The translations under genes and the position numbers were made by a program. Shown here piece after piece: positions 8,265-45,129 of a stretch of DNA of 64,000 nucleotides (the first letter of the stretch is position 1; each line of letters begins with the position of its first letter). This DNA comes from Streptomyces sp. 71268 (GTDB lineage Bacteria > Actinomycetota > Actinomycetes > Streptomycetales > Streptomycetaceae): assembly GCF_029392895.1 (NCBI RefSeq), contig NZ_CP114200.1, forward strand, positions 62,001-126,000. Direction: 5' to 3'. The notes under the pieces are model-generated. The model saw nothing but the letters and a program-made list of their open reading frames with translations. It did no database searches and was not told the DNA's origin.

Positions 8265-8307
8265 GTTTGGCTTCAAACAAGATAGGAAGCGGCCACCCCG
8301 GGGTCAA
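8265..8307 (-). promoter_or_regulatory. promoter plus operator for the ferredoxin/ring-cleavage operon
   Basis: On the minus strand TTGACC (8307-8302) is followed after exactly 17 bases by TATCTT (8284-8279). The inverted repeat GTTTGAAGCCAAAC (8278-8265) begins directly downstream, over the expected transcription start. The same GTTTG-N4-CAAAC design occurs at 8372 and 45116. An operator there would block RNA polymerase, so TetR-type repression is the natural reading; the binding protein is inferred. Confidence 0.7.
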
Positions 8308-8344
8308 TAGCTATCCGGATGGATAAATTTCTACCGCCAACCCC

Positions 8345-8385
8345 TTGCCGGCGGTCGGCGACCTCCCTACCGTTTGACGTCAAAC
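8345..8385 (+). promoter_or_regulatory. promoter plus operator for the glutamine-synthetase-like/P450 operon
   Basis: TTGCCG (8345-8350), 17 bases, then TACCGT (8368-8373). The perfect palindrome GTTTGACGTCAAAC (8372-8385) overlaps the -10 end and start site. The geometry mirrors the divergent promoter at 8265-8307, so both operons are probably induced together. The roughly 130-base leader that follows is C-rich and contains the short repeated block TCCCCCTGGCCC at 8435-8460, with no evident function. Confidence 0.7.
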
Positions 8386-8515
8386 AACAACGCCTCCCGC
8401 TATCGCGGTACGAGGCGCCGCCCCTGGCATTCCCTCCCCCTGGCCCCCTCCCCCTGGCCCTTCCTCTCGCGCCTCGCGGCCCTGGGAGGCGCCCCCTTCC
8501 CCAGAGGAGACACCG

Positions 8516-9871
8516 GTGAGCGCATCCGACACCTCACCCGTCCACCGGCGCGTGGAACAGTTGGCCGCCGCCGGCATCGACGTGGTCCGGGTGACCTATC
8601 CCGACCTCATCGGCACCGAGCGGGCCCGGGACGTCCTCCTGGACCACCTCCCCGCGGCCTGCGACCACGGCCTGGCCTTCTGCCGCGCCGTCTACCACAC
8701 CAGCCCCCAGGGCGACACGGTCGATGTCGCCGGCGGCCTCGACGCCGGCCTGCCCGACATCCGCGTCACCCCGGACCTGGACACCCTGACGGCGCTGCCG
8801 TGGGAGCCAGGGGTCGCCACCTGTCTGGGCGACGTCACCGACCCGGCCACCGGGCTGCCCGCGCCGGAGTCACCCCGCGACCTGCTGCGGGCCGTCCTCG
8901 ACCGGTGCGCCGAACACGGCCTCCAGCCCGTGGTGGGCCCGGAGTTGGAGTACTTCCTGTGTGACGCGGCGCCCGACCACCCGCAGGGTTGGCGCCGCTA
9001 CAGCGACGCCGACGGCGTCGTCTACACGGCCGGGCTGCGCGCGGACCGGGACAACCACCTGCTGCGCACCCTGCGCCTGCTGCGCGACCTGGACATCGGC
9101 GTCAGCGGCGGCAACCACGAGTACGACGGGTCCCAGTTCGAGATCAACCTGACCCACGGCGACGCCGCGCGCGCCGCCGACCGCGCCTTCCGCTTCAAGT
9201 CCGCCATCAAGGAGCTGGCCCGCGCGGAGGGGCGCCTGGCCACCTTCATGGCCAAGCCCTTCAACGACGCCGGCGGCTCCGGCTTCCACCTCCACCTGTC
9301 CTGCGTGGACGCGCGGGGCGCGAACGTCTTCGCCGACCCCGCCGCGCCGTACGGCCTCTCGGCCACCGCGCGGCACGCGCTGGCGGGCCTCCTCGCGCAC
9401 GCGCCGGCCCTCAGCGCCCTGGCCAACCCGACGGTCAACTCCTACAAGCGGATCGGACCCGACACCCTGGCACCCTGGCTGATCGACTGGGGATTGGACA
9501 ACCGCAGCGCCATGGTGCGCGTTCCGCCCGAGCGCGGCGCGGCCTCCCGCCTCGAACTGCGCCTCGGTGACGCGAGCGCCAACCCGTACCTGCTGATCGC
9601 CGCCACCCTGGCCGCCGCCCTGCTCGGCATCCTGGCCCGCGAGGAGCCGCCGGCCCCGCTGGAGGGTTACGGCTACGACGCCGCGCGGGCCGAGCCGCTA
9701 CCGGCGACCCTGTCCGCCGCCCTCGACGCGCTGGAGGCGGACACCGCGCTGACCGAGACGCTGGGCAAGGACTTCACCGCTTCCTACCTCGCCTACAAGC
9801 GCGACGAGGTCAACCGCTTCCAACGGCACGTGACCGACTGGGAGTTCACCGAGTACGCCTACCACCTGTGA
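8516..9871 (+). CDS. glutamine synthetase-like gamma-glutamyl ligase (PuuA/GlnA3-type)
   Basis: 451 residues. The class I glutamine synthetase catalytic fold is complete: GPELEYFLCD (first metal-binding Glu), GGNHEYDGSQFEINL, KPFNDAGGSGFHLHLS (the His/Asn loop), NPTVNSYKRI and RLELRLGDASANPYLL. The N-terminal beta-grasp is short and divergent, and the protein is not the housekeeping GlnA. Such paralogues ATP-dependently join glutamate to amines (putrescine, ethanolamine, isopropylamine, aniline). GTG at 8516 follows AGAGGAGA. The P450 gene starts 19 bases downstream. With PuuC- and PuuD-like genes at the other end of the divergent operon, gamma-glutamylation of an amine is the likely job; the amine is unknown. 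Confidence 0.85.
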   Translation: MSASDTSPVHRRVEQLAAAGIDVVRVTYPDLIGTERARDVLLDHLPAACDHGLAFCRAVYHTSPQGDTVDVAGGLDAGLPDIRVTPDLDTLTALPWEPGVATCLGDVTDPATGLPAPESPRDLLRAVLDRCAEHGLQPVVGPELEYFLCDAAPDHPQGWRRYSDADGVVYTAGLRADRDNHLLRTLRLLRDLDIGVSGGNHEYDGSQFEINLTHGDAARAADRAFRFKSAIKELARAEGRLATFMAKPFNDAGGSGFHLHLSCVDARGANVFADPAAPYGLSATARHALAGLLAHAPALSALANPTVNSYKRIGPDTLAPWLIDWGLDNRSAMVRVPPERGAASRLELRLGDASANPYLLIAATLAAALLGILAREEPPAPLEGYGYDAARAEPLPATLSAALDALEADTALTETLGKDFTASYLAYKRDEVNRFQRHVTDWEFTEYAYHL

Positions 9872-9890: not shown

Positions 9891-11189
9891 ATGAGCCGCG
9901 TGCCATCCCCGCCAGCCACCACCGAAGCCGCGCGCGAACCGATGCCCCTGGCCGAGGTGGACCTCGCCGACCTGGACCGGTTCACCGACGGCGTCACACC
10001 CTGGCGGATGTTCCACACCCTGCGCCACCAGGACCCCGTCCACTGGCAGCCGGAGGACGCGCCGAACTCCGGCTTCTGGGCGGTGACCCGGCACGCCGAC
10101 ATCGCCCGCGTGGACCGCGATCCCGAGACGTTCACCTCCACCAGGTTCGTCAACCTGGAGGAGGTCGACGACGACCAGATCAGGCGGCGCGCCTCCCTGC
10201 TCGAACTCGACGGCCTGCGCCACCGGGCCCTGCGCGGACTGCTGCAGCGCCAGTTCGGCGCGCGCGTCATCAGCGGCTACGTCGACTTCCTGCGCGGCCT
10301 GACCGCCACCACCCTGGACGCGGCCCTGGCCAGGGGCACCTTCGACTTCGTCGAGGAGGTGGCAGCCGACTTCCCCATCAACGTCCTCGCCCGCCTGCTC
10401 GACGTACCGCCCGAGGACAACCAGCGGCTCATCGGCTGGGGCAACCGCATCATCGGCCACACCGACCCCGACTACGCCGACGTCCTCCTGGACAGCGCGG
10501 AGAGCGAGCGGTACCGCGACCTCCCCTTCCGCTCCCCCGCGTCGCTCGAAGTCTTCGCGTACGGCAGGGAGCTGGCCCGCCAGCGGCGTGGCGGCGCGGG
10601 CACCGACCTGGTCTCCCGGCTGGTCAACGAGGTGCCACGGGACGGGGTGCCGGTCTCCGACCGGGACTTCGACAACTACTTCCTGCTGCTGGTCGTCGCC
10701 GGCAACGAGACCACCCGGCACACCATCAGCCACTCGATGCTGGCCCTCCTCCAGCACCCCGACCAACTCGCCCGGCTGCGCGACGATCCCTCCCTCATCC
10801 CGACGGCGGTCGAGGAGTTCCTGCGCTGGGCCTCGCCCGTCTACCACTTCCGCCGCACCGCCACCCGCGACACCGAGCTGGGTGGCAAGCGGGTTAGGGC
10901 CGGGGAGAAGGTCGTCATGTGGTTCGCCTCCGGCAACCGCGACGAGGAGGTCTTCGGCGACCCGTACGCCTTCGACGTGGCCCGCCGGGACAACGACCAC
11001 CTCACCTTCGGCAAGGGCGGCCCGCACCTGTGCCTGGGCAACCAGTTGGCCCGCACCGAGATCCGCATCCTGTTCGAGGAGCTGATCCCGCGCCTGGCGG
11101 ACGTGCGACTGGCCGGCGAGGTCCCCCGGGTGCGCTCCAACTTCGTCAACGGCATCAAGCGCCTGCCCATCGACGTCACCCTGGCCTGA
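9891..11189 (+). CDS. cytochrome P450
   Basis: 432 residues, a soluble bacterial class I P450. The I-helix oxygen motif is AGNETT. The K-helix ExxR is EEFLR, and the haem loop is FGKGGPHLCLG with the cysteine ligand, one residue looser than the textbook FGxGxHxCxG. The N-terminus has no membrane anchor. ATG at 9891 follows GAGGAGGCGAC. It is co-transcribed with the glutamine-synthetase-like ligase and served in all likelihood by the ferredoxin and reductase encoded divergently. Hydroxylation or dealkylation of the pathway substrate before ring cleavage is inferred. A strong hairpin just downstream ends the operon. Confidence 0.92.
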   Translation: MSRVPSPPATTEAAREPMPLAEVDLADLDRFTDGVTPWRMFHTLRHQDPVHWQPEDAPNSGFWAVTRHADIARVDRDPETFTSTRFVNLEEVDDDQIRRRASLLELDGLRHRALRGLLQRQFGARVISGYVDFLRGLTATTLDAALARGTFDFVEEVAADFPINVLARLLDVPPEDNQRLIGWGNRIIGHTDPDYADVLLDSAESERYRDLPFRSPASLEVFAYGRELARQRRGGAGTDLVSRLVNEVPRDGVPVSDRDFDNYFLLLVVAGNETTRHTISHSMLALLQHPDQLARLRDDPSLIPTAVEEFLRWASPVYHFRRTATRDTELGGKRVRAGEKVVMWFASGNRDEEVFGDPYAFDVARRDNDHLTFGKGGPHLCLGNQLARTEIRILFEELIPRLADVRLAGEVPRVRSNFVNGIKRLPIDVTLA

Positions 11190-13250: not shown

Positions 13251-13841
13251 TCAGTCGATGATGTTCCGCATCAGGCGGTCGACATGGGCGCGGTGTTCGG
13301 GGATCAGCTCGCCGCTGGGGAACATCAGGCAGGTGACGTTGGCCCCGATGGACATGCTGATGACCTCGCCGGCCAGCGCCGTCACGGCCGGCGCCTCGGG
13401 CGACTCGCCCCTGCCTCGTGCCTCGGCGATCCGTACGGCGAGCCGCCTGCGCCACTCCGTGAGGTGCTCGCGGTAGAGGGTGGCGAGTTCCGCGTTGGCC
13501 ACCGAGTGCTCCCACAGGGAGAGCAGCACACGGGCGGAGTCGATGCGGTACGTGTCCAGCGGCAGCGTCACCTCGATGTCGTGCCGCAGCGCCTCCTTCG
13601 GGTCGAGCGAGGGATCTCCGTCGTTGATCCGCTCGTTCATCTCCGCGAGCACGCTCTGGAACGTGGCGGCCACGATGCTGTCCTTGCTGGGGAAGTAGCG
13701 CTTGAGCGCCCCGTTGGCGAATCCCGCCTCAGCGACGATGCTCCTCATGGTCGCGGCCTCGAAGCCGCCCTGGATGATGAGCTTCTTCGCGACGGCGACG
13801 ATCTCTCGCCGTCGCTGATCGTGGTCGATAATCTTCGGCAT
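13251..13841 (-). CDS. TetR/AcrR-family transcriptional regulator
   Basis: 196 residues. The helix-turn-helix is in the first about 55 residues (RRREIVAVAKKLIIQGGFEAATMRSIVAEAGFANGALKRYFPSK), followed by a ligand-binding domain with a BetI-like C-terminal region (LPLDTYRIDSARVLLSLWEHS). ATG at 13841 is only eight bases from the stop of the ABC ATPase, so it is part of the importer operon and is likely to control it in response to the transported compound. Its operator was not identified with confidence. Confidence 0.88.
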   Translation of the reverse strand: MPKIIDHDQRRREIVAVAKKLIIQGGFEAATMRSIVAEAGFANGALKRYFPSKDSIVAATFQSVLAEMNERINDGDPSLDPKEALRHDIEVTLPLDTYRIDSARVLLSLWEHSVANAELATLYREHLTEWRRRLAVRIAEARGRGESPEAPAVTALAGEVISMSIGANVTCLMFPSGELIPEHRAHVDRLMRNIID

Positions 13842-13849
13842 AGTTGTCC

Positions 13850-14700
<851 letters not shown>

Positions 14701-14704
<4 letters not shown>

Positions 14705-16497
14705 GCGCGCACCGTCCGTCCGGCCTTGTTCCAGGCCGCGTCCAGTTCGGCGCGGCTCTCGGTGTCGTCCTGCGAGGCTTTGATCAGCTCGGCGGTGTAC
14801 GGGTCGCCGGGGTGGGCGAAGATCTGCTCGACCGTGCCGGTCTCGATGACCCGGCCGTCCTTCATGACGGCGACCCGGTCGCAGATGTCGGCGACCACGC
14901 CGAAGTTGTGGGTGACGATGACGAGTGCCATTCCGTACTCCCGCTGTAGCTCGCGGAGGAGTTCGAGCACCTCGGCCTGGACCGTGACGTCGAGCGCCGT
15001 GGTGGGTTCGTCGGCGACCAGCAGGCTGGGGTTGCCCGCGACGGCTCCCGCGATCAGCACGCGCTGGGCCATGCCGCCGGAGATCTGGTGCGGGTGGCAG
15101 GCCAGTACGCGGTCGGGGTCGGTGATGCCGACCCGCAGCAGCACCTCGCGGGCCCGTTCCCGGGCCTGTGCCCTGGTCAGCTTGTGCACCGCCCGCAGGG
15201 GCTCCGTGAGTTGGTGGCCGACGGTGTAGCAGGGGTCGAGGTTGCTCATCGGCTCCTGGGGCACGTAGCCGATCCGGGTGCCGAGCAGCGCGTGTCGGCC
15301 GGCCCGTGACAGGTCGCCGACCGGCTGACCGCCGATCCACATGCCGTCGGCCACGGCCCGGCCGTCGGCCGGGAGCAGGTCGAGGGCGGAGAAGACGGTC
15401 TGTGACTTGCCCGAACCCGACTCGCCGACGATGCCGAGCACCTCTCCGGGGGCGACGTCCAGGCAGACGCCGCGTACGACCCGCTTGTCGCCGTGTGGTG
15501 TGCGGTAGCTGACCCGGAGGTTGTCGATGCGCAGCGCGCTGGCCTCGATGGGGTGCACCAGTTCGCCGGTCTTGTCGGTGGTCTCCTCGGGCGTCTGCTC
15601 GGCCGGGCGCCGGCGGCGGGGTGCCGGTTCGCCGCGTACGCTCACCAGGTCGGCGAGGGTCGAGCCCATGAAGGCGAGGGCGGCGATCGTGATGCCCAGC
15701 GCCGCCGACGGCCACAGCAGGATGAGCGGGTGGGTCAGCATGGTGCGGAACCCGTCGTTCATCATCTGGCCCCAGTTGGCCTCCGACGCGGTGCCGATGC
15801 CGAGGAACTGCAGGCCGGTCTGCATGCCCATGGCGATGCCGGCGGTCAGGGCGGACTGGATGATCACCGGCGCGTGCACGGCCCGCAGCACGTGGGCATG
15901 GAGGATCTTGACGTGGGTGAGCCCGGCGACCCGGGCGGCGTCGATGTAGGGCTCCTTGCGCACGGCCAGGGCCCTGGAGCGGGAGATGCGGTAGTAGCCG
16001 GGCGCCATGAACGCGCCGACCGTCACCATCAGCACCGTGAAGTCAGCTCCCGTGCCGGCGGCGACGATGAGCAGCACGATCATGCCGGGTACGGACTGCA
16101 CGCCGTCGCTGATCCAGGAGAAGACCCGGTCGGCCAGGCCGCCGAAGTAGCCGGCCGCCACTCCGGCCGGCACCCCGAGCGCGATCCCCGTCAGGCAGGC
16201 CACGGCCGCCCCGTACAGGGTCGTGCGTGCCCCGAACAGCAGTCGGCTGAGGATGTCCCGGCCGGCCGAGTCGCCGCCCATCCAGTGGCTGGAGTCGGGC
16301 GGTGCCTGGGTGAGGGCGAAGTCGACGAAGTTGGGGTCGTGCGGGGCCAGCAGCGGGGCCAGCAGTCCGGCGAGGACGACCAGGAGGAAGACCGCCAGCG
16401 CGGCGACCCCGACGGGGCGGCGCAGGTAGCGCGACCACAGTCCCCGCCCGGCCGGGGTGGGCGCGGTCCCCTCGGTGGGGGTTACGGCATCGATCAT
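14701..16497 (-). CDS. fused ABC permease and ATPase (DppC-DppD) of oligopeptide-type importer
   Basis: 598 residues. Residues about 1-300 are a DppC-type permease: several membrane helices starting at VGVAALAVFLLVVLAGLLAPLLA, and the EAA loop RKEPYIDAARVAGLTHVKILHAHVL. After a charged linker (RRRRPAEQTPEETTDK) comes a DppD ATPase with Walker A GESGSGKSQ (Gln where Ser/Thr is followed by Thr in most), signature SGGMAQR, Walker B LLVADEPTTALD and His in VTHNFGVV. ATG at 16497 overlaps the DppB stop in ATGA. Such DppC-DppD fusions occur in actinomycetes. Confidence 0.92.
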
Positions 16498-17435
16498 TTC
16501 TCGCGCACCTTCGGGTTGACCCACCCGAGCACGAGGTCGAGTAGGAAGTTGACGACGACGACGAACACGACCGTCACGACGGTCAGCCCGAGCAGGACCG
16601 GTATGTCACCGATCTGGGAGGCCGACTGGGTGAGGCTGCCGATGCCCGGCAGGTTGAAGATGATCTCGACGACGATGGCGCCGCCGAGCAGTCCCACGAA
16701 CATCACCGCGAGCACGGTGAGCGCCGCGGGCGAGGCGTTGCGCAGTACGTGCACGGTCACGCGCCGGGCGGAGAGGCCGCGGGCCCGCAGCGTGCGGACG
16801 AAGTCCTGGTTGTTGACCTCCTGGAAGCCGTTGCGGAGCTGTTCGGCGATCATCACGATCGCGCCGAGCGCCAGGGCGATCGAGGGCAGGGTGATGGAGC
16901 GCAGCCACTGGGTGCCGGAGTGGGACAGTGGCACGTAGCCGACGGCGGGGAACCACTGGAGCTTGATCGCGAAGGCCATGACGAGCATGAGGCTCACCCA
17001 GAAGCCGGGGAGGGCGAACAGGACCACCGAGGCGAGCTTGAGGACGCGGGCGAGGACGCCGCCGGGGTTGAGCCCGGTGGCCACACCCACGACGAGCCCG
17101 ACGACGGCCGCGAGCAGGGTGGCGGCGACCACGATCGACAGGGTGACGGGCACGCGCAGTTCGATCTGGTCCGAGACGGGTTGGAAGTTGCGCCACGAGG
17201 TCCCGAAGTCGCCGCGCACCGCGTGCGAGAGCCAGTCCCAGAACTGTGTCATGAGCGGGCGGTCCAGGCCGAGTTGCTCGCGCAGCGCCGCCCGCTGGGC
17301 GGGGGTGGCGCTGTCGCCGAGCAGGCCGGGGGTGGGATCGCCGATGGCCAGGTGGGCCAGGAAGAAGGAGGCGGACGTGACGACCACCAGGAGGACGGCC
17401 CCTGACAGCAGGCGCCGAAGCGTGAATCTGATCAT
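16494..17435 (-). CDS. ABC transporter permease (DppB type)
   Basis: 313 residues. The N-terminal helix (LRRLLSGAVLLVVVTSASFFLAHL) and the conserved segment LGLDRPLMTQFWDWL are typical of DppB/OppB. Five further membrane helices follow, with an EAA loop (NNQDFVRTLRARGLSARRVTVHVLRNA). It lies 61 bases after the lipoprotein gene and overlaps the fused permease-ATPase. It forms the membrane channel with the DppC half of the next protein. Confidence 0.93.
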   Translation of the reverse strand: MIRFTLRRLLSGAVLLVVVTSASFFLAHLAIGDPTPGLLGDSATPAQRAALREQLGLDRPLMTQFWDWLSHAVRGDFGTSWRNFQPVSDQIELRVPVTLSIVVAATLLAAVVGLVVGVATGLNPGGVLARVLKLASVVLFALPGFWVSLMLVMAFAIKLQWFPAVGYVPLSHSGTQWLRSITLPSIALALGAIVMIAEQLRNGFQEVNNQDFVRTLRARGLSARRVTVHVLRNASPAALTVLAVMFVGLLGGAIVVEIIFNLPGIGSLTQSASQIGDIPVLLGLTVVTVVFVVVVNFLLDLVLGWVNPKVREK

Positions 17436-17496
17436 GTGAAGACCCCTCTGGGGGCGGCGTCGCCCGCGCGCCGGGCGTCCGCCGCCGGAACGGGAA

Positions 17497-19008
17497 CTAG
17501 CCGCGCTGGAGGAACCGCAGGGTCGGGAACATCATCCCGGTGATGGGGGTCACCGTGATGCCCTTCTTGCTGAAGTAGGTGTTGTCCGCCTGGTACCAGA
17601 CGTCCTGCCATGCCTGGTCGGTGACTTCCGCGTTGAGCCGGCGGATCGCCGCGAGCTGCTCCTTGCCGGTGGTGTCGCCGATCTCGCCGAGCAGCCCGTG
17701 GAGCCTCGGGAACGCCTCGGTCGAGGGGTTGGGGTTGAACCACTGCTGGGAGGCGATCCGGCCGTCGACCGAGGCCGCGGCGTTGGAGTCCAGGGCCACG
17801 ACCGCGACGAACATCGGGTAGGTGGCGGCGTTCTTCTGGTAGTCGGCGGGTGACAGGTTCTTCCAGGTCACCTTGATGCCGATCTGGCCGAGGATCTGCT
17901 GGACGGCGGGCTGCCAGGGTTGGAAGATCGACGACATCGGCATGGTGACGCGGAAGCCGTCGGCGTAGCCCGCCTCGGCCATGAGTTGTTTGGCCTTGTC
18001 CAGGTCGAAGGCGTACCGGTCGTTGAGCGAGGCGTCGTAGGCCGGGTCGCCGGCGGGGAAGACCTGGTTGGTGGCCACCCCCGCGCCCTGGCCCACTGAC
18101 TTGAGGATGGCCGCGCCGTCGAAGGCGTGGTTGATGGCGCGCCGCACCCGCACGTCACCCAGCGGCTTGAGCTGTTTGCCCGTGCGGTCGGTGAACTGGA
18201 TGCCCACCCAGGTGGCGACCTTGGAGGCGATGTTCCAGCCGTTGCGCTTGGCGTGCGGGGTGTCCGCGGCGTTGGCGTAGGCGACGTCCAGTTGTCCCGA
18301 GAGCATGGCGTTGAAGCTGGCGGTCGGGTCGGCGATGGGCAGGACGCGCACGGACTCGAACGGGTAGGTGCGGCGGTCCCAGTGTCGCGGCTTGCGGGTG
18401 AAGGTGTACTGCGATCCGGGGGTCGAGTCGCCCTGGTCGTAGGTGTACGGGCCCGATCCGACGGGCCGGGCGACGAGCGACTTGGCCTTGATCGCGGCCG
18501 GGGACGCCATCCAACTGCGTCCCAGGCCCATGTTGTACAGCAGGGCGTCGTCCTTCTTCTTCAGGCGAAGGGCGATGGTGTCCGCGTTGACCTGGCGTAC
18601 GGCGGCGACGTTGGCGTAGGTCTGACCGGAGCGGACGCCGGCCTTGAGGTGGTTGAGGTTGGCCACCGCGGCCGCGGCGTCGAAGGGTTGGCCGTCGGAG
18701 AAGGTGACTTCGGAGCGTAGCCGCATGGTGAGCGTCAGGCGGTCCGGGGAGTACGTCCAGGAGGTGGCGAGCGCCGGGATGGGCTGGGACTTCTCGTCCA
18801 GGGCGACCAGCGGGTCGTAGACGGCTGACAGGTAGGGACCGTCGAAGCCGATGTCGGCCTGTGCCGGGTCCCAGGAGGTGACGTCGAGGAGGGTGCCGAT
18901 CCTGATCTTCTCGACGGGTCCGTCGCCGGAGCTGGCTCCGGCGTTCGTACAGGCGGCCAGCGCGAGGGCGACGACCGCGACAAGTGTGGCTCTCCAGATC
19001 CTCTGCAT
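17497..19008 (-). CDS. extracellular solute-binding lipoprotein, family 5 (oligopeptide-type)
   Basis: 503 residues. A signal peptide ends in the lipobox LAAC, giving a lipid-anchored Cys20. The mature part has the SBP family 5 pattern: GTLLDVTSWDPAQ, the ligand-cradle VYDPLVALDEKSQPIPALATSWTYSPDRLTLTMRLR, and VRRAINHAFD. ATG at 19008 is preceded by GAGAAG. It is the first gene of the importer operon. Family 5 proteins bind peptides but also opines, nickel and aromatic or sugar conjugates, so the ligand is open; the catabolic surroundings favour an amide or conjugate of an aromatic compound. Confidence 0.92.
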   Translation of the reverse strand: MQRIWRATLVAVVALALAACTNAGASSGDGPVEKIRIGTLLDVTSWDPAQADIGFDGPYLSAVYDPLVALDEKSQPIPALATSWTYSPDRLTLTMRLRSEVTFSDGQPFDAAAAVANLNHLKAGVRSGQTYANVAAVRQVNADTIALRLKKKDDALLYNMGLGRSWMASPAAIKAKSLVARPVGSGPYTYDQGDSTPGSQYTFTRKPRHWDRRTYPFESVRVLPIADPTASFNAMLSGQLDVAYANAADTPHAKRNGWNIASKVATWVGIQFTDRTGKQLKPLGDVRVRRAINHAFDGAAILKSVGQGAGVATNQVFPAGDPAYDASLNDRYAFDLDKAKQLMAEAGYADGFRVTMPMSSIFQPWQPAVQQILGQIGIKVTWKNLSPADYQKNAATYPMFVAVVALDSNAAASVDGRIASQQWFNPNPSTEAFPRLHGLLGEIGDTTGKEQLAAIRRLNAEVTDQAWQDVWYQADNTYFSKKGITVTPITGMMFPTLRFLQRG

Positions 19009-34016: not shown

Positions 34017-35045
34017 TCAGTCGTCCTGCGGGGCCGGCTCGACGATCCCGAGGCCGTCGGCGCCGACCTGGACGGCGGACTCGTCCAGGACGGACTCGGT
34101 GACGGGCACCGGGCGGCCGTCCAGGTCGAGGACCGGGGACGCCTCCTTGTACCAGGACTCGATCACCGCGTTGCCCCAGAAGTCCCGGCGGCGGTCGTCG
34201 CGGACGTTCCACCGGTAGGTCTCGTGGTCCGGGTCGCCGGTGTAGTAGTCGGAGGTGTAGATCTCCACCCGGTGGCCGTCCGGGTCGCGCAGGTAGAGGT
34301 AGAAGGCGTTGGAGACGCCGTGCCGGCCCGGACCCCGCTCGATGTGGTGCTCCTGGCGCAGCGAGCCGAAGAGGTCGGCGGTGCGCAGCACCTGGTGCGA
34401 CTCGTGGGTGGCCACGCCCACGTGGTGCAGGCGCGGGCCGGCGCCCCCGGTGAAGGCCACGTCGTGGACGGTCTGCTTGCGGTACATCCAGGCCGCGTAC
34501 AGCTCGTGCTCGTCGCCCTCGATCGTCTCCGAGCAGCCGAAGCCGAGCGCCTCGTAGTGGGCGTAGGCGGCGGGGATGTCGGGGGTGCAGATGTTGAAGT
34601 GGTCCAGGCGGGCTATCTCGGCGCCGCGGCGCAGGTCGTAGCGCTGGATGAGGCGCTCGGCGCGCTCGATGTCGTGGAAGAACTCCACCGGGAAGCCGAG
34701 CGGGTCGATGACGCGCACGGCGTCGCCGACCCCCGGCGTGCCCGCTCCCTTGGGCACGCGACGCACGGGCCGGCCGAGCGCGGTGAAGTACGCCTCGGCG
34801 CGGTCGACGTCCTCGCTGGTGCGCACCCGGTAGGAGATGTGGTCCAGGGCCGCCGTCTCACCCTTGCGCAGCACCAGGGAGTGGTGGGTGAGTTCGTCGG
34901 TGCCGCGCAGGCACAGCAGGGACTCGTCCTCGTACTGGGAGTGGAAGCCGAGCATGTCGACCCAGAACCAGCGGGCCCTGGCCAGGTCGGTGACGGCGAG
35001 CTGGGCGTACGCGGAGCGGACGACGTCAGGAGGTGTGAGGGTCAT
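34017..35045 (-). CDS. hpaD: homoprotocatechuate 2,3-dioxygenase (class I, vicinal-oxygen-chelate extradiol dioxygenase)
   Basis: 342 residues. Fe(II) or Mn(II) ligands His149 (LDHFNI), His208 (LHHVG) and Glu261 (RVEIY), with acid-base His194 (TVHDVAF) and Tyr251. They keep the exact spacing of the Brevibacterium fuscum / Arthrobacter enzymes (155, 214, 267, 200, 257). This is the fold and subfamily that opens 3,4-dihydroxyphenylacetate. ATG at 35045 has AAGGAG eight bases upstream; an earlier GTG is less likely. Last gene of the operon, 20 bases after the HpaE-like gene. It is unrelated in fold to the extradiol enzyme at 3412-4338. A related catechol as true substrate is possible. Confidence 0.9.
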   Translation of the reverse strand: MTLTPPDVVRSAYAQLAVTDLARARWFWVDMLGFHSQYEDESLLCLRGTDELTHHSLVLRKGETAALDHISYRVRTSEDVDRAEAYFTALGRPVRRVPKGAGTPGVGDAVRVIDPLGFPVEFFHDIERAERLIQRYDLRRGAEIARLDHFNICTPDIPAAYAHYEALGFGCSETIEGDEHELYAAWMYRKQTVHDVAFTGGAGPRLHHVGVATHESHQVLRTADLFGSLRQEHHIERGPGRHGVSNAFYLYLRDPDGHRVEIYTSDYYTGDPDHETYRWNVRDDRRRDFWGNAVIESWYKEASPVLDLDGRPVPVTESVLDESAVQVGADGLGIVEPAPQDD

Positions 35046-35065
35046 GGCAGGTCGCTCCTTGACGG

Positions 35066-36562
35066 TCACGCGCCGAAGCGGGGGGTGTGGGCCTGGTCGA
35101 GCATGACGTGCACGATCTTCGACTCGGTGTAGAAGTCGATACTATGCGCACCGCCCTCGCGGCCAAGGCCGGATGACTTGACCCCGCCGAAGGGAGTGCG
35201 CAGGTCACGGACGTTGTGGGAGTTGATCCACACCATGCCGGACTCGACGGCGTGGGCGACGCGGTGCCCGCGCTTGAGGTCGGAGGTCCACACGTAGGCG
35301 GCGAGCCCGTACTCGGTGGCGTTGGCCAGCTCCACGGCCTCGGCCTCGTCGTCGAAGGGGGCCACGGCCACGACCGGGCCGAAGATCTCCTCCTGGAAGA
35401 TGCGGGCGTCGCGCGGGACGTCGGCGAAGACGGTGGGCTGGAGGTAGTTGCCCTCCGGCAGGTGCGCGGGGCGTCCGCCGCCGGCCACCAGCTTCGCCTC
35501 CTGCTGCCCGATCTCGACGTAGCCGAGGACGCGCGCGTAGTGCTCGGCGTGGACCAGGGCGCCGACCTCGGTGGCCGGGTCCGCCGGGAGGCCGACCTTC
35601 ACGCGCTCGGCGCGCTCGGCCAGCCGGCGGGTGAACTCCTCGTAGATCGGGCGCTCCACCAGGACGCGGGAGCCGGCGGTGCAGCGCTCCCCGTTGAGCG
35701 AGAAGACGCCGAAGACGACCGAGTCCAGCGCCGCGTCCAGGTCGGCGTCGGCGAAGAGGACGACCGGGGACTTGCCGCCCAGCTCCATCGACGTGGTCTT
35801 CAGGTGCGTCGCGGAGCTGCGGACGATGTGCCGGCCGGTGTCGGTTGAGCCGGTGAAGGAGATCAGCGGGACCCCGGGGTGGTCCACCAGCGCCTGGCCG
35901 GCCTCCTCGCCGATGCCGTGCACGATGTTGACCACGCCGGAGGGCACGCCGGCCTCGTCCAGGATCTCCGGCCACAGGCTCGCGGACAGCGGGGTCCACT
36001 CGGCGGGCTTGAGGACCAGGGTGCAGCCGGAGGCCAGCGCCGGGGCCAGCTTCCAGCTCTCCAGCATGAACGGGGTGTTCCAGGGGGTGATCAGGCCGGC
36101 GACGCCGACGGGGGTGCGCACGACGTAGTTGATCTGCTGGTCACCGGCCCGGAACGCCTCCTCGCCGATGGCGACGATGACGTCGGCGAAGTAGCGGAAG
36201 TTCTCCGCCGCCCGCCGGGCCTGGCCGCGGGCCTGGGTGATGGGCAGCCCGGAGTCGAAGGTCTCGAAGGCGGCGAGGCGCTCCTCGCGCGCCTCGACGC
36301 CGTCGGCGATCCGGTACAGGAGGCGGGCGCGCTCCCGGTTGCCCAGCTTCGACCAGGCGGGGAAGGCGGCCGAGGCGGCGGCGACGGCGCGGTCCACGTC
36401 GTCGCTGGCGCCGGCCGCGGCGGTGGCGTAGGGGGCGTTGGAGACGGGGTCGCTGACGGGGAACGTGCGGCCGTCGGCGCTGTCGGTGAGTTCGCCGCCG
36501 ATCCAGTGGCGGATCCGGGTGGGCAGGTCGGCCGGGCGGCTCGGGGTGGTGTTCGTGGACAT
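35066..36562 (-). CDS. hpaE: 5-carboxymethyl-2-hydroxymuconate semialdehyde dehydrogenase
   Basis: 498 residues. HpaE-type N-terminus IRHWIGGELTDSADGRTFPVSDP. PWNTPFMLESWKLAPAL, SFTGSTDTGRHIV, MELGGKSPVVLFADADLD and the catalytic Cys in NGERCTAGSR are all present. It is directly upstream of the homoprotocatechuate dioxygenase (20-base gap), as in hpa/hpc operons, and downstream of the DapA-like gene (25-base gap). It oxidises the ring-cleavage semialdehyde with NAD. ATG at 36562 behind AAGAGA. More similar in context to classical HpaE than the copy at 4331-5794. Confidence 0.9.
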   Translation of the reverse strand: MSTNTTPSRPADLPTRIRHWIGGELTDSADGRTFPVSDPVSNAPYATAAAGASDDVDRAVAAASAAFPAWSKLGNRERARLLYRIADGVEAREERLAAFETFDSGLPITQARGQARRAAENFRYFADVIVAIGEEAFRAGDQQINYVVRTPVGVAGLITPWNTPFMLESWKLAPALASGCTLVLKPAEWTPLSASLWPEILDEAGVPSGVVNIVHGIGEEAGQALVDHPGVPLISFTGSTDTGRHIVRSSATHLKTTSMELGGKSPVVLFADADLDAALDSVVFGVFSLNGERCTAGSRVLVERPIYEEFTRRLAERAERVKVGLPADPATEVGALVHAEHYARVLGYVEIGQQEAKLVAGGGRPAHLPEGNYLQPTVFADVPRDARIFQEEIFGPVVAVAPFDDEAEAVELANATEYGLAAYVWTSDLKRGHRVAHAVESGMVWINSHNVRDLRTPFGGVKSSGLGREGGAHSIDFYTESKIVHVMLDQAHTPRFGA

Positions 36563-36587
36563 GGGTGTCTCTTCCCGTAGCGGAGGG

Positions 36588-37508
36588 TCAGAGCTGCTGG
36601 GTGAGGTCGCCGCCCTCGGCGAGCAGGGCGCGGATGCGGGCGAGGCCGCCCTCGGTGGGCGGGGTGAGCGGGGGACGTACGTGGTGTGAGGCGATGCGGC
36701 CCTGCTGCTCCAGTACCCACTTGGCCGGGGCCGGGTTGGTCTCGACGAACAGCAGGTCGACCAGGGGGTGCAGGCGGTAGTGCAGCTCCCGCGCGGCCTC
36801 GTGGTCGCCGGCCTCCCACAGCTCGTACATCCGGGCCACGGCGGTGGGCGCCAGGTTGGCGACGGCGGAGACGAAGCCGGCCCCGCCGAGCGCGAGCAGC
36901 GGCAGGCACAGCAACTCGATGCCGGACCACACGAGCAGTTCGCGGCCGCAGGCGTGCAGGACGCGGGAGAAGTGCTCGAAGTCCTTGGTGGTCTCCTTGA
37001 CGCCGACGAAGTTGTCGAAGTCGGTGAACAGCCGCCGCACCGTGTCCGGCGCGATGTCCACGGCGGTGCGCGAGGGCACGTTGTAGGCGACCAGCGGCAG
37101 GTCGGGGAACTCGCGGGCCACGGTGGCGTACCACTGGTACAGCGCCTCCTGGGTGGGGCGCGCGTAGTACGGGGTGATGACCAGGGCGGCGTCGGCGCCC
37201 AGTTCCCTGGCCGCCGCGGTGATCTCCAGCGTCTCGTCCAGCTTGTGCGAGCCGGTGCCGGGCAGGAACGGCACCCGGTCGCCGATCTCGGCGGCGGCGG
37301 TGCGCATGGCGGCGATGCGCTCGGCGGCGCTCTGCGCGGAGGGTTCGCCGGTCGAACCGCCCAGCGAGATGCCGTGTGAGCCGGACTCCAACTGCCAGCG
37401 GACCAGGCCCCGCAGGCTGTCGTGGTCCACCGCGCCGTCCGCGGTGAACGGCGTGACCAGGGGGGCGATGGACCCGCGGATGGTGGCGGGGTCGGTGCGG
37501 AACTTCAT
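36588..37508 (-). CDS. DapA/NAL-family aldolase or lyase (dihydrodipicolinate synthase-like)
   Basis: 306 residues, a TIM barrel of the class I pyruvate-dependent aldolase family. GSTGEPSAQSAAER carries the carboxylate-binding GSTGE loop. Tyr is in YNVPSRTAVDI, and the Schiff-base Lys in VGVKETTKDF. In an hpa operon the expected step is retro-aldol cleavage of 2,4-dihydroxyhept-2-ene-dioate to pyruvate and succinate semialdehyde, and DapA-like proteins substitute for HpaI in some actinomycetes. True DapA for lysine is not expected here. ATG at 37508; 34 bases downstream of the FAH-RraA gene. Confidence 0.85.
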   Translation of the reverse strand: MKFRTDPATIRGSIAPLVTPFTADGAVDHDSLRGLVRWQLESGSHGISLGGSTGEPSAQSAAERIAAMRTAAAEIGDRVPFLPGTGSHKLDETLEITAAARELGADAALVITPYYARPTQEALYQWYATVAREFPDLPLVAYNVPSRTAVDIAPDTVRRLFTDFDNFVGVKETTKDFEHFSRVLHACGRELLVWSGIELLCLPLLALGGAGFVSAVANLAPTAVARMYELWEAGDHEAARELHYRLHPLVDLLFVETNPAPAKWVLEQQGRIASHHVRPPLTPPTEGGLARIRALLAEGGDLTQQL

Positions 37509-37542
37509 GGGGTGCTCCGTGGGTGGGTGGGTGCGGGCGGTT

Positions 37543-38979
37543 TCACGGTCGGGTGTCGCGCCACTGCTGGTAGGCCGCCTGCCAGGTGGGGCCGAGCGGG
37601 TACAGGCCCTCGATGGCCTCGCCCGCCGCCACCCGCTCGGCGATGAACCGCTCCCGCGCTTCCTGTTCGACGCTGTCGGCGACGAGTTCGCCGGCCAGGT
37701 CGGGCGGGACGACGACGACGCCGTCGGCGTCGCCGACGAGGATGTCGCCGGGCTGTACGAGCGCCCCGCCGCAGGCGATGGGCACGCCGGTGTCCCAGGG
37801 GACGTGCCGGCGCCCGAGGACGGCGGGGTGCTCGGCGGCGTAGTACGTGGGAAGGTCCAGGTCGGCCACCGCGGCGCTGTCGCGCAGGCCGCCGTCGGTG
37901 ACGATGCCGGCCGCGCCGCGCACCTGGGCCCGCAGCGCCAGGATGTCGCCGATGGTGCCGGAGGTGGGGTCGCGGCGCGCGTCCATCACCAGCACCTGGC
38001 CCGGGCGCAGTTCCTCGACGGCGCGTTTCTGCGCGTTCATGCCGTTGCCGTACCGCGCGAACAGGTCCTCGCGCAGCGGCAGGTAGCGCAGGGTGTGTGC
38101 GGTGCCGACGAGCTTGCCGCCCGGCTTGGTGGCGCGCAGTCCGTCGATCGTCATGTGCTGGAAGCCGCGCTTGCGCAACTGGGAGCTGAGGGTGGCGGTG
38201 GCCAGGCCGCGCAGCGCGTCGGCGATCGCCTTGTCGAGAGTGGCCTCCTCACGGTGGGCCGGGCCCCAGGCGTCGGCCCGCAGCGCGGCGTCCACGCGCG
38301 GCATGGCGCCCCATTCCGCCAACGGGTGTTCCGCGTCGGTGACCTGGTTGCGCAACCGGCCGCTGGTCAGTCCCTGGTCCGGGGCGCTGACCTCGACCTC
38401 GACGGTGTCGCCGGGCGATACCACGGAGGCGCCGGCCGGGGTGCCGGTGAGGATCACGTCCCCGGGCTCCAGGGTGACCAGCCGCGACAGGTCGGCTATC
38501 AGGGTGCCGAACGGGAAGAGCAGGGTCGCGGTGTCGGCGTCCTGCACCAGTTCGCCGCCCACCCAGGTGCGCAGTCGCAGGGCGGCGGGGTCGAGCGCGG
38601 TGGCGTCCAGGAGCCGGGGGCCGATGGGGGTGAAGCCGTCGGCGCCCTTGGAGCGGAGGTTGGAGCCGCGGTCGGCGTAGCGCAGGTCGTACGCGCCGGC
38701 GTCGTTGGCCGCCGTCACCCAGGCGACGTGGCTCCACCCCAGCTCCGGGCTGACGCGGTGCGCGCGGCGGCCGATGACCAGGGCGATCTCGCCCTCGAAG
38801 GACATCAGTTCACAGCCGCTGGGCCGCGCGATGGCGTCGCCCGTGCCGGCCAGCGAGGAGGGGGGCTTGAGGAAGTAGGACGGCTGGTCGGGGACGCGTC
38901 CGCGTTCCCTGGCCCGGCAGGGGTAGTTGAGGTGGACGGCGATGATCTTCGAGGGCTGGGTTCCCAGCGGATGCGGCAT
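37543..38979 (-). CDS. fusion of FAH-family isomerase/decarboxylase and RraA-like aldolase
   Basis: 478 residues. Residues about 10-215 are an FAH domain: SKIIAVHLNYP, YFLKPPSSLAG, FEGEIALVIGR, NDAGAYDLRYADRG, GDVILTGTPAGAS. Residues about 250-475 are an RraA/4-hydroxy-4-methyl-2-oxoglutarate aldolase-like domain: GTIGDILALRAQVRGAAGIVTDGGLRD with the Asp/Arg-Asp active-site signature, and GDILVGDADGVVVVP. FAH would isomerise or decarboxylate the muconate product; the RraA half could cleave the resulting hydroxy-oxo acid to pyruvate. ATG at 38979 behind AGGAGA. First gene of the operon, 139 bases from the GTATAC palindrome. Confidence 0.85.
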   Translation of the reverse strand: MPHPLGTQPSKIIAVHLNYPCRARERGRVPDQPSYFLKPPSSLAGTGDAIARPSGCELMSFEGEIALVIGRRAHRVSPELGWSHVAWVTAANDAGAYDLRYADRGSNLRSKGADGFTPIGPRLLDATALDPAALRLRTWVGGELVQDADTATLLFPFGTLIADLSRLVTLEPGDVILTGTPAGASVVSPGDTVEVEVSAPDQGLTSGRLRNQVTDAEHPLAEWGAMPRVDAALRADAWGPAHREEATLDKAIADALRGLATATLSSQLRKRGFQHMTIDGLRATKPGGKLVGTAHTLRYLPLREDLFARYGNGMNAQKRAVEELRPGQVLVMDARRDPTSGTIGDILALRAQVRGAAGIVTDGGLRDSAAVADLDLPTYYAAEHPAVLGRRHVPWDTGVPIACGGALVQPGDILVGDADGVVVVPPDLAGELVADSVEQEARERFIAERVAAGEAIEGLYPLGPTWQAAYQQWRDTRP

Positions 38980-39118
38980 GGGAGTTCTCCTGGGCGTGTG
39001 CGGCGCGAGGCGCTGGTCGAGGAGGAGGGGCGGCTGTCCGCGCGGGCGGTGGCGAGGAGGCCCGGCACGGACCGCGGCGGCCTTGCTGAGACGACCGGGC
39101 AGGTACCACGGTGGAATA

Positions 39119-39130
39119 ATCGTATACGAT
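39119..39130. promoter_or_regulatory. ATCGTATACGAT palindrome, candidate GntR operator
   Basis: A perfect 12-bp palindrome between the divergent FAH-RraA operon (start 38979) and the alpha/beta hydrolase (start 39272). The identical 12-mer recurs inside the 14-bp palindrome at 41782. FCD-type GntR regulators favour GTATAC-like cores, and such a gene lies at 40074. Confidence 0.65.
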
Positions 39131-39271
39131 ATCATGCATGGCGGGTCTGGGAAGATGGTGCGCACCGCCAGCGGCGAGGGCGCGACCCGCCCGGCCGCGC
39201 GCCAGCGGACCACTGGTTCGCGTACAGGATCGAAGTTCACCGCCGACACCCGAAGTGAGGATGTGCGACCG

Positions 39272-40012
39272 ATGCAGAGTCGAACCGGTCTGACGGTCCG
39301 AACGTTCGCCCCCGCCCAGACCGCCGGTCAGCCGCCCGTGCTCCTCGTGCACGGCTTCGGCTCGGACAGCGGCCGGGACTGGATCGACACCGGCATCGCC
39401 CGGGCGCTGACCGCGGCCGGGCGCGTGGTGATCGCGCCCGACCTGCGCGGCCACGGGGAGAGCCCGGCCCCCGCGACCGTCGCCGAGGTCGCCGTGCCGG
39501 CCCTGGTCGCCGACCTGGTCACCGTGGTGGACGAGGCGGGCGCGGAGGCGTTCGACGTGGTCGGGTACTCACTGGGCGCCCGGCTCGCCTGGGAGTTGCC
39601 CTCGGCGGCGCCCGGCCGGCTGGGCCGGGCGGTGCTCGGCGGGCTGAGCCCCGCCGAGCCGTTCGCGGCGGTGGACGTGACGGCGCTGCGCCGCGCGGTC
39701 GCCGACGGCATCGAGCCCGCCGACCCGTTCACCGCGATGATCGCCGGCATGGTGCGCGCCCACGGGCCCCGGGCCACCGGCCTGGCCCGCTGCGTGGAAG
39801 GGCTGCGCGCCACGCCCTTCGCTCCCCGGTCCTGGGCCGGCGCCACGCCACCGGTCTTCGTCGCCGGGACGGACGACGTGATGACCCGTGGCATAGAGCA
39901 GGTCGCCCGGTCGGTGGACGGGGCGCGACTGGTCTCGGTCCCGGGCGACCACCAGGGGGTTCTCGCCGGGGACGCGTTCCGCCGTACAGTCCTGGAAGTG
40001 CTCGCGGGGTGA
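39272..40012 (+). CDS. alpha/beta hydrolase
   Basis: 246 residues. HGFGSD oxyanion region, nucleophile Ser100 in GYSLG, Asp in FVAGTDD and His in VPGDHQGV complete a likely triad. The cap is short. It resembles pimeloyl-ACP-esterase/MhpC-like hydrolases, which can hydrolyse C-C bonds of meta-cleavage products or esters. ATG at 39272 is chosen, with GAGG about 11 bases upstream. The gene faces the ring-cleavage operon across the GTATAC palindrome and precedes gntR by 61 bases, so it is probably in the same regulon. Confidence 0.82.
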   Translation: MQSRTGLTVRTFAPAQTAGQPPVLLVHGFGSDSGRDWIDTGIARALTAAGRVVIAPDLRGHGESPAPATVAEVAVPALVADLVTVVDEAGAEAFDVVGYSLGARLAWELPSAAPGRLGRAVLGGLSPAEPFAAVDVTALRRAVADGIEPADPFTAMIAGMVRAHGPRATGLARCVEGLRATPFAPRSWAGATPPVFVAGTDDVMTRGIEQVARSVDGARLVSVPGDHQGVLAGDAFRRTVLEVLAG

Positions 40013-40073
40013 ACGTGGGAGTGGACAGCCGGGGTCGCGGTGCGACCGACCGGCCCGGGGTAGGGAAGCAGCC

Positions 40074-40748
40074 ATGAGTACGACGGAGAAGCGGTCGGGC
40101 GGTACGGGGTCGAAGGCCGAGCTGAGCTACGACCTGCTGCGCTCGCGCATCCTCGACGGCACCTACGGGCCCGGCTACCGGCTGGTCCTCAGCCAGCTCG
40201 CGCGGGAGGCCGGGGTCAGCACGATCCCGCTGCGCGAGGCGTTGCGCAGGCTCCAGTCCGACGGGCTGGTGGAGGTCGTGCGCAACATCGGCGCCCGGGT
40301 GGCGGTCTTCGACGCCACGCAGGTCGAGCACTCGCTCCAGGTCCTGGCCCGCCTGGAGGGGTACGCCACCGCGATCTCCGCCGCCCACATGTCGGCCCCG
40401 GACGTGGAGCGGTCCCGGCAGGTCAACGCCCGTATGACCAAGGCGTTGGAGGACTTCGACCCCACCGCCTTCACCGCGCTCAACCGGGAGTTCCACTTCT
40501 CCCTCTACGCGCACTGTCCCGACGCGCACCTGGTCGCCCTGCTGGAGGCCGAGTGGGCCCGCCTTGACCACATGCGTCGCTCGACCTTCAGCTACGTCCC
40601 CGGGCGGGCCCGGCGCTCCGTCGCGGAGCACGAGCGGATGCTGGAGCTGATCGAGGCGGGCGCGCGGCCCGAGGAGATCGAGCGAGTCGCCTGCGCCCAC
40701 AAGATCGCCACGGCCGACGCGCTGCGCCAGGCACAGACCGCGCCCTGA
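40074..40748 (+). CDS. GntR-family regulator, FCD (VanR/FadR-like) subfamily
   Basis: 224 residues. A winged helix in residues about 15-75 (YDLLRSRILDGTYGPGYRLVLSQLAREAGVSTIPLREALRRLQSDGLVEV) precedes an FCD effector domain (residues about 85-215). The latter has the metal-ligand pattern with His in FNREFHFSLYAHCP-like and SVAEHERMLE segments. It sits between the palindromes at 39119 and 41782, so it is the leading candidate for their binder, likely repressing until a carboxylate effector from aromatic breakdown is bound. ATG at 40074. A strong terminator hairpin follows. Confidence 0.9.
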   Translation: MSTTEKRSGGTGSKAELSYDLLRSRILDGTYGPGYRLVLSQLAREAGVSTIPLREALRRLQSDGLVEVVRNIGARVAVFDATQVEHSLQVLARLEGYATAISAAHMSAPDVERSRQVNARMTKALEDFDPTAFTALNREFHFSLYAHCPDAHLVALLEAEWARLDHMRRSTFSYVPGRARRSVAEHERMLELIEAGARPEEIERVACAHKIATADALRQAQTAP

Positions 40749-40750
40749 GA

Positions 40751-44006: not shown

Positions 44007-44050
44007 CTGGCCACCCTCGCCACCCAACCGACCACCCGTGAGGGAGCACC

Positions 44051-45028
44051 ATGCGCGTTTTCCCCGTCCCCTTCGACCCCACGCTGAGCGCGGTGCTCGA
44101 CGCGCTGCCCCGTCCCGCTGGCCCGGAGTTGTCCCTGGCGGACGTTCCGAAGCTGCGCGAGGCCGCGACGGCCTTCCCCACGCCGCCGATCGCCGAGGTC
44201 ATCGGCGACCGGGACATCGACGCCGAGGAGCTGACGGTTCCCGGCCCCGGCGGCGCGCCCGACCTCGCCGTCACCGTGCTGCGCCCGCGCCGCCAGGTGG
44301 TGCCGGCCCCGGGCCTGTACAACATGCACGGCGGCGGCATGATCAGCGGCCATCGCCACCAGGACGCGGCCCGCCTGGCCGACCTGGTGGAGGAGTTGGG
44401 GGCGGTCGCCGTCAGCGTCGAGTACCGGCTCGCGCCGGAGCACCCGGACCCAGCGCCGGTGGAGGACTGCTACGCGGGCCTGGTGTGGATGGCGCGCGGC
44501 GCCGCGGAGCTGGGCGTCGACCCGGGCCGCGTCGTCGTCATGGGCGGCAGCGCCGGCGGCGGCCTGGCGGCCGGGGTCGCGCTGCTCGCCCGGGACCGCG
44601 GCGGGCCGCCCCTGGCGGGGCAGTTGCTGCTGTGCCCGATGCTCGACGACCGCAACACGACGGTCTCCAGCCACCAGTACGACGGCAGCGGCACCTGGCA
44701 GCGGTCGATGAACCTGCTGGGGTGGCGGGCCCTGCTCGGCGACCGGACGGGCGGCACGGCGGCGCGGGTGTCGCCCTACGCCGCCCCGGCCCGGGCCCGC
44801 GACCTGTCGAACCTGCCGCCGGCCTTCGTCGAGGCCGGCAGCGCCGAGCTGTTCCGGGACGAGGACGTGGCGTACGCGTCCCGGATCTGGGCGGCGGGCG
44901 GCCAGGCGGAGCTGCACATCTGGCAGGGCGCTTTCCACGGCTTCGACGTCTTCGCCCCGGACCACGAGGTGACACGGGCCGCGCTGGCCACCCGCCTGTC
45001 CTGGCTACGCCGCGTGCTCGACCGCTGA
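44051..45028 (+). CDS. alpha/beta hydrolase, HSL family (paralogue of 31525-32511)
   Basis: 325 residues. MHGGGMISG oxyanion motif, nucleophile elbow GGSAGGG, YRLAPEHPDPAPVED, and C-terminal His in AFHGFDVF. It is similar over the whole core to the hydrolase at 31525 (shared CPMLDDRN, SPYAAPARA, LPPAFV and GGQAELH blocks). ATG at 44051 behind GAGGGAGC. It ends the phosphotriesterase operon and may hydrolyse the ester or lactone in the step before or after. Confidence 0.86.
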   Translation: MRVFPVPFDPTLSAVLDALPRPAGPELSLADVPKLREAATAFPTPPIAEVIGDRDIDAEELTVPGPGGAPDLAVTVLRPRRQVVPAPGLYNMHGGGMISGHRHQDAARLADLVEELGAVAVSVEYRLAPEHPDPAPVEDCYAGLVWMARGAAELGVDPGRVVVMGGSAGGGLAAGVALLARDRGGPPLAGQLLLCPMLDDRNTTVSSHQYDGSGTWQRSMNLLGWRALLGDRTGGTAARVSPYAAPARARDLSNLPPAFVEAGSAELFRDEDVAYASRIWAAGGQAELHIWQGAFHGFDVFAPDHEVTRAALATRLSWLRRVLDR

Positions 45029-45087
45029 GGCGCGGCGTCGCTCCGGCGCCCTGGCACGGGCGGCGACCGCACCCCACCACGGAGCCC

Positions 45088-45129
45088 TTGTCGGGCCCGC
45101 ACGCCGAAACATAAGGTTTGGCCTCAAAC
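45088..45129 (+). promoter_or_regulatory. promoter plus GTTTG-N4-CAAAC operator upstream of the amidohydrolase
   Basis: TTGTCG (45088-45093), 18 bases, TAAGGT (45112-45117), overlapped by GTTTGGCCTCAAAC (45116-45129). The same architecture as the two promoters at 8.3 kb ties this gene to the P450/ring-cleavage operons 37 kb away. Confidence 0.65.

Follow-up and report, generated by a model that had tools for sequence, protein, structure and literature searches.

The question raised by this locus of Streptomyces sp. 71268 is which protein reads the palindrome GTTTG-N4-CAAAC, found at the promoters of three transcription units within a window of 64,000 bases (positions 62001-126000 of a genome consisting of one contig of 8,379,354 bases). 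The initial annotation of this window had proposed a split regulon under a single repressor, probably the TetR-family regulator encoded at 1897 (TetR-1897) or else the one at 13251 (TetR-13251). The comparisons described here support a single operator serving a split regulon. As a predicted operator, the palindrome is real, rare and conserved, and it very probably belongs to a third regulator, of the MarR family, which is encoded at genome positions 60755-61420, tail to tail with a peptidase-C26 gene, at a distance of 0.6 kb from the left edge of the window. The three sites and the promoters that they touch are the following.

8265-8278: operator 1, predicted MarR-type, GTTTGGCTTCAAAC; abuts the -10 box of the ferredoxin operon promoter and is conserved in relatives.
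8372-8385: operator 2, predicted MarR-type, GTTTGACGTCAAAC, a perfect palindrome; shares two bases with the -10 box of the promoter of the glutamine-synthetase-like (GS-like) and P450 genes.
45116-45129: operator 3, predicted MarR-type, GTTTGGCCTCAAAC; lies at the amidohydrolase promoter and has counterparts in relatives.
8279-8307, minus strand: ferredoxin operon promoter, TTGACC-17-TATCTT, from the promoter scan; adjoins operator 1 at 8278.
8345-8373, plus strand: GS-like/P450 promoter, TTGCCG-17-TACCGT, from the hexamer register analysis; the stricter scanner did not list it.
45088-45117, plus strand: promoter-like sequence of the amidohydrolase gene, TTGTCG-18-TAAGGT, recognized by eye in the same register as at the other sites; shares two bases with the operator at 45116.

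A scan of the window with the pattern GTTTGNNNNCAAAC recovered the three 14-base repeats with no mismatches, exactly where they had been annotated and with the perfect palindrome at 8372-8385. The claim that each repeat touches a -10 box of a promoter with a spacing of 17-18 bases was also borne out, the third promoter by eye only, since the promoter scanner listed nothing at 45088-45117. The genome-wide scan that the annotation had called for has shown that the motif does not occur at random: exact copies are found at three places in the whole genome, all of them inside the window, and the backward-read control gives none. Outside the three operators there are eight places with one mismatch, which are regarded as noise because the reversed control gives more (14); no related gene was recognized beside them among the open reading frames, on which profiles were not run. 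In 36 relatives taken together, the reversed pattern has 16 exact places, or 0.44 per genome. An extension of the site to 20 bases, GTTTGNNNTCAAACNAGATA, occurs exactly at 8265 and 45116 only. A recurrent sequence, GTTTGGCTACAAAC, appears in many relatives both with and without the MarR gene (L092, L109, L181, L183 and L186). The one neighbour examined, in L092, is the gene downstream of this sequence, and its only matches are to TPR, all of them below the cut-off. The sequence was set aside as another conserved element, resembling the operator.

Conservation was followed in the family, of which 297 genomes were searched. Relatives of the GS-like gene (at least 69% identity) are present in 36 further genomes, and up to 20 kb around this gene was fetched from all of them. 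The gene order of the cluster recurs in most of these relatives, and 36 of the 37 genomes, this one included, have an operator with at most one mismatch upstream of the GS-like gene (exact in 30). Two copies are found there in 22 genomes, separated by 107 bases in 14 of them and by 105-108 bases in 21. All 58 operators of these upstream regions have a -10 hexamer in register with a -35 hexamer (at least three of six letters); by chance, 2.9% of positions show this arrangement when a single strand of this DNA is considered. The -35 box of the GS-like promoter keeps only three or four of the six consensus letters in most loci.

The MarR gene is the regulator that accompanies this arrangement most constantly. 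Of the 37 genomes that carry the GS-like gene, 36 have one copy each; G144, the one genome without it, also lacks the operator, and its GS match is partial. The 20-kb stretches around the GS-like gene miss it in most genomes, the gene lying beyond their edge. The winged-helix domain was recognized in two family copies (49.7 bits in L063 and 44.2 bits in L072, Pfam cut-off 24.6), and the protein of this genome, itself not Pfam-scanned, is assigned by its 74% identity to the L063 copy. The best NCBIfam match of that copy is HpaR (TIGR02337), at 52 bits against an equivalog cut-off of 121.2. Among the ten whole-searched genomes that lack TetR-1897, seven hold the MarR gene near the cluster.

The association extends to other families. 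When 394 genomes of the class were searched for the MarR protein, 32 proved to carry it. The homologues in the 23 that belong to other families are 44-70% identical, and the DNA around each of these genes was retrieved. The GS-like gene (43-63% identical) is present in 21 of these distant stretches, together with the acetoacetate-decarboxylase-like protein (ADC) in 18, LigB in 16, FAA hydrolase in 16, P450 in 19 and a TetR-1897 homologue in one. A site with at most one mismatch occurs in 17 of the 23, in L201 only inside genes. Over the 367,275 bases of these stretches, 27 such sites were counted against two in the reversed control, and a refined pattern picked after inspection, GTTHGGNNCCDAAC, gave 41 against none. 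Other actinomycete families (L194-L214) likewise retain most of the cluster, in many cases together with an operator-like site; several of those genomes measure only 1.3-3 Mb, a size unusual for catabolic luxury.

A MarR-type autoregulated regulon is expected to carry its palindrome over the transcription start and also at the promoter of the regulator. The register described above agrees with the first feature. For the second, TACAATTTG-N4-CGAAC or a close form was found by a strict pattern at the MarR promoter in 18 of 30 family loci, and in one genome of another family (G575; L159, L193) an exact operator lies directly upstream of the MarR gene. The MarR protein is the better candidate reader because it is constant with the GS-like gene, because a form of the palindrome stands at its own promoter and because the operator is kept in genomes without TetR-1897. 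No account of this regulator or of its operator turned up in the literature, which was consulted mostly without full texts.

The genes of the units concerned are listed below.

7969-8157, minus strand: ferredoxin, first gene of the left operon (Pfam, on the longer open reading frame 7969-8307).
6670-7965, minus strand: ferredoxin reductase (Pfam).
5841-6630, minus strand: ADC, start approximate (Pfam; best NCBIfam match MppR, below cut-off).
4331-5794, minus strand: aldehyde dehydrogenase, HpaE-like (Pfam; NCBIfam below cut-off).
3412-4410, minus strand: LigB-type ring-cleavage dioxygenase, HpaD-like (Pfam; NCBIfam below cut-off).
2552-3553, minus strand: FAA hydrolase, HpaG-like (Pfam; NCBIfam below cut-off).
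1897-2523, minus strand: TetR-1897, TetR-family regulator within the left operon (Pfam TetR_N and TetR_C_31, above cut-off).
171-1655, minus strand: aldehyde dehydrogenase ALDH1, PuuC-like (Pfam; NCBIfam below cut-off).
1-174, minus strand: N-terminal end of the peptidase-C26 protein (gamma-glutamyl hydrolase-like), which extends to genome position 61437; named from its similarity to the Pfam-tested C26 protein of L064.
8516-9871, plus strand: GS-like ligase (Pfam, NCBIfam).
9891-11189, plus strand: cytochrome P450 (Pfam).
45206-46915, plus strand: amidohydrolase, Amidohydro_3.

The inclusion of the distant amidohydrolase gene in the predicted regulon, already suggested by the annotation, is supported by the relatives. 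An amidohydrolase relative is present in 16 of the 36 genomes, and 10 of these 16 have an operator-like site: an exact one in G001 and one with a single mismatch in the other nine. In G029, G004 and G031 this site belongs to the gene itself, as in G001; in the remaining six (G170, G228, G139, G158, G083 and G009) it heads a stretch leading into the amidohydrolase gene, and in three of those six the stretch holds an ABC-ATPase-like motif, not profile-checked. In G009 the gene adjoins the MarR gene, and the GS-like gene is 6.9 Mb away by contig coordinates. Six relatives with other copies of the enzyme (58-64% identical; G264, G144, G202, G201, G213 and G131) showed no operator with up to two mismatches in the 400 bases read, nor, at one mismatch, in 8.5 kb of G264, the start of the G131 copy being unreadable. 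The two best solved-structure matches of the amidohydrolase are named only as uncharacterized metal-dependent hydrolases. Support therefore extends to membership of the regulon but not to the release of the pathway's amine, which the annotation had attributed to this enzyme.

Further genes lie behind the same site in relatives. The amino-acid permease is preceded by a site with at most one mismatch in 24 of 26 distinct loci (30 rows, copies of at least 60% identity), and ALDH1 in 11 of 22; three of the latter loci had been fetched because of the site, and without them the count is 8 of 19. The ALDH1 count comes from 27 rows, or 23 distinct loci, with the artefact L072 dropped, and permeases below 60% and ALDH1 copies below 70% identity were left out. 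A tyrosine-decarboxylase-like gene stands directly downstream of the operator in three loci (L097, L102 and L103; genomes G023, G004 and G031), which were found through the operator pattern and thus have no denominator. These genes are a hint that the amine might derive from an aromatic amino acid. In its main points, the case for the MarR protein does not depend on the decarboxylase or ALDH1 counts. In L101 and L104 the operator lies between an aldehyde dehydrogenase gene and a FAD-oxidase-like gene, PuuB-like by eye (profile not run), which could possibly provide the missing oxidase step.

A second palindrome separates operators 1 and 2.

8312-8325: TATCC-N4-GGATA, TATCCGGATGGATA, proposed site of TetR-1897, between operators 1 and 2.

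It is the only TATCCN4GGATA in the genome, and it starts 47 bases past the start of operator 1 and 60 ahead of operator 2. With at most one mismatch, this palindrome occurs in all 27 loci with TetR-1897 (25 family stretches, the window, and G284, in which the TetR gene is on another contig), as opposed to 1 of 10 loci without it (Fisher 8e-8, kinship uncorrected). From operator 1 to its start there are 47 bases in 27 of 28 pairs, and from its start to operator 2 there are 58-61 bases in 20 of 20. In G572, from another family, a TetR homologue with 50% identity has a very similar helix-turn-helix, and its aligned start is preceded, at a distance of 43 bases, by the sole TATCC site present in G572; this is a single case. 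Taken together, the presence of the site with TetR-1897, its scarcity elsewhere and its position at the TetR gene of another family make it quite probable that TetR-1897 reads TATCC-N4-GGATA. Extra copies of this palindrome are found 6-17 kb from the cluster in G083 (C4), G089 (C1) and G290 (C2), where an extra ferredoxin/P450-like pair is also present, and the TetR regulon may be larger in these genomes. Several genomes have a single TATCC site at some other place, whether or not the TetR gene is present.

TetR-1897 would somewhat more probably act from this site as an activator than as a second repressor. If transcription starts about 7 bases past each -10 box, the palindrome would be centred about 46 and 61 bases upstream of the two starts, a place that would suit an activator; centres near -46 and -61 are distances usual for activators. 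The alternative that survives best also takes the MarR protein as the reader of GTTTG-N4-CAAAC, but has TetR-1897 repress as well, its site between the two -35 boxes blocking both polymerases, so that the divergent promoters would have two locks. The TATCC site does start only 5 bases from the ferredoxin -35 box. The rigid spacing between the TATCC site and the operators, together with the poor -35 box of the GS-like promoter, fits activation better without being decisive, and this double repression is a real possibility, though the lesser one.

Several observations weigh against the assignments of the two palindromes to these two regulators. Regarding the MarR protein, crude doublet shuffles of the distant stretches give three to eight one-mismatch sites, more than the two of the reversed control. 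The strict pattern at the MarR promoter is missing in 12 of 30 family loci, some with near forms and some with nothing clear, and the MarR promoter of this genome has only a weak variant, TACAATCTGGTCCCGAAC, with three mismatches. The TATCC, MarR-promoter and GTTHGG patterns were all picked after inspection. Since GTTTGGCTACAAAC occurs regardless of the MarR gene, some exact matches must be something other than MarR sites. A fourth decarboxylase gene, adjoining the MarR gene in G003 (L222), has no site. The joint absence of MarR gene and operator comes down to a single genome, and the counts and the Fisher value overstate independence, coming as they do from related genomes. As for TetR-1897, the fragmented draft G131 has the TATCC site with no TetR found.

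To these points must be added eight genomes of the family sample that have the MarR gene without a full GS-like gene. Seven of them have no site with at most one mismatch in the 18-19 kb around the MarR gene, and six have one exact site each, none of them near it; one exact site is also present in five of 20 genomes without the MarR gene. In the eighth (G020), which is not among the 36 relatives, a fragment of the GS-like gene remains, and two sites lie at the amidohydrolase gene. The MarR genomes without a full GS-like gene being mostly site-free near MarR, the sites near this gene follow the pathway genes and not the MarR gene alone. This speaks for the alternative that the palindrome is read by another, unseen regulator travelling with the MarR protein. 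Against such a regulator stand the operator or its variant at the MarR promoter and near the MarR gene in other families, and among the regulators of the window, the only ones looked for, none is as constant in the 36 family and 23 distant stretches. An unseen companion is highly unlikely, and the MarR protein remains the preferred reader.

The reader favoured by the initial annotation, TetR-1897, would have repressed all three promoters through GTTTG-N4-CAAAC. Its gene lies inside the regulated operon and has a homologue in 25 of the 36 family stretches (tblastn, 1e-12), all of them with a nearby operator of at most one mismatch. However, the operator is not confined to genomes with this protein: a search of 15 whole genomes at an E-value of 1e-20 left ten without TetR-1897, nine of which carry the operator (one of the nine, G131, being the fragmented draft). 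The protein is also missing from 22 of the 23 distant stretches, most of which carry the palindrome, and its presence tracks TATCCN4GGATA instead, so that this proposal has become very improbable. The other candidate of the annotation, TetR-13251, with a BetI-type C-terminus, lies 5 kb from two of the three sites, but it adjoins an oligopeptide-transport operon, and a search confined to the 36 family and 23 distant stretches and not extended to whole genomes (tblastn, 1e-12) found no homologue of it; it is almost certainly not the reader. The GntR regulator at 40074 was also considered and rejected, as no homologue was found in the same 36 and 23 stretches (tblastn, 1e-12). In the region 13251-19101, the TetR gene adjoins an oligopeptide-type ABC transporter operon, of which it is probably the local regulator.

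According to these data, a mechanism centred on the MarR protein can be postulated. A MarR dimer would cover the transcription start at the ferredoxin-to-aldehyde-dehydrogenase, GS-like/P450 and amidohydrolase promoters, repressing them, and would control its own promoter through the weaker variant site until a compound of the pathway releases it. TetR-1897, made from the ferredoxin operon itself, would read TATCC-N4-GGATA. This unusually clear organization suggests that two regulators, each with its own palindrome, share one divergent promoter.

The gene combination, in turn, suggests that an aromatic amine is gamma-glutamylated before its ring is cleaved. As judged from protein names below their cut-offs, the pathway would gamma-glutamylate an amine of the tyramine kind and open its ring by homoprotocatechuate-type enzymes. 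The NCBIfam ranking of the GS-like ligase places type III ligase first, followed by GlnA and gamma-glutamylputrescine synthetase, this last (NF045547) at 269 bits with a cut-off of 650. The homoprotocatechuate meta set also falls below the equivalog cut-offs (HpaD 114 of 316, HpaE 528 of 638 and HpaG C-terminal 203 of 276 bits). PuuC (for ALDH1), HpaD, HpaE and HpaG are nonetheless the first or second best NCBIfam names of the respective proteins, all below cut-off.

The Puu pathway is a gamma-glutamylation route for amines. Like it and like the GlnA2/GlnA3/GlnA4 route, this cluster has a GS-like ligase, a PuuC-like dehydrogenase, a C26 hydrolase and a permease, but here they are joined to ring-cleavage genes. 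In Streptomyces, where GlnA2, GlnA3 and GlnA4 of S. coelicolor serve such a route, gamma-glutamylation of amines is known with other regulators (PMC11356490, PMC8998196), which are GlnR, EpuRI and EpuRII (PMC11356490). The words tyramine, dopamine and aromatic do not occur in the main text of PMC8998196.

Regarding the regulator, the MarR repressor HpaR of homoprotocatechuate (hpa-meta) degradation binds palindromes with arms of 4-5 bases and a 4-base gap, one of them centred at -8 (PMC7180172). The likeness lies in the MarR domain, the best NCBIfam match, the regulation of HpaD/HpaE/HpaG-type enzymes and the 4-base gap shared with GTTTG-N4-CAAAC. The operator letters differ, being TTAA-N4-TTAA in HpaR according to the same source (PMC7180172). 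The score is far below the cut-off, and this predicted regulon contains a GS-like ligase, a P450, a permease, an amidohydrolase and a TetR protein with its own site. TetR-1897, for its part, shares the TetR_N and TetR_C_31 domains with the TetR_C_31 regulators, from which it differs in that its putative site lies upstream of two divergent promoters and not on the start. A second homoprotocatechuate-like set is encoded at 34017-40748 (glyoxalase-type dioxygenase, aldehyde dehydrogenase, DHDPS-like protein and FAA/RraA fusion), with a divergent GntR-FCD regulator, and the window scan found no exact GTTTG-N4-CAAAC at it.

The case illustrates how an operator can be credited to the wrong protein when a single window is read; here the better candidate lies 0.6 kb past the edge. 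More tentatively, and with somewhat more doubt than confidence, the cluster may represent a widely held actinomycete pathway, not yet described, in which an aromatic amine, fed by a remote amidohydrolase, would be gamma-glutamylated, oxidized by a P450 and opened at the ring. Its control would fall to a dedicated MarR repressor placed on the transcription starts, joined in one lineage by a TetR activator at a rigid distance between the divergent promoters. A candidate regulator, a predicted operator and a putative regulon thereby become available for a catabolic cluster that several actinomycete families have kept.

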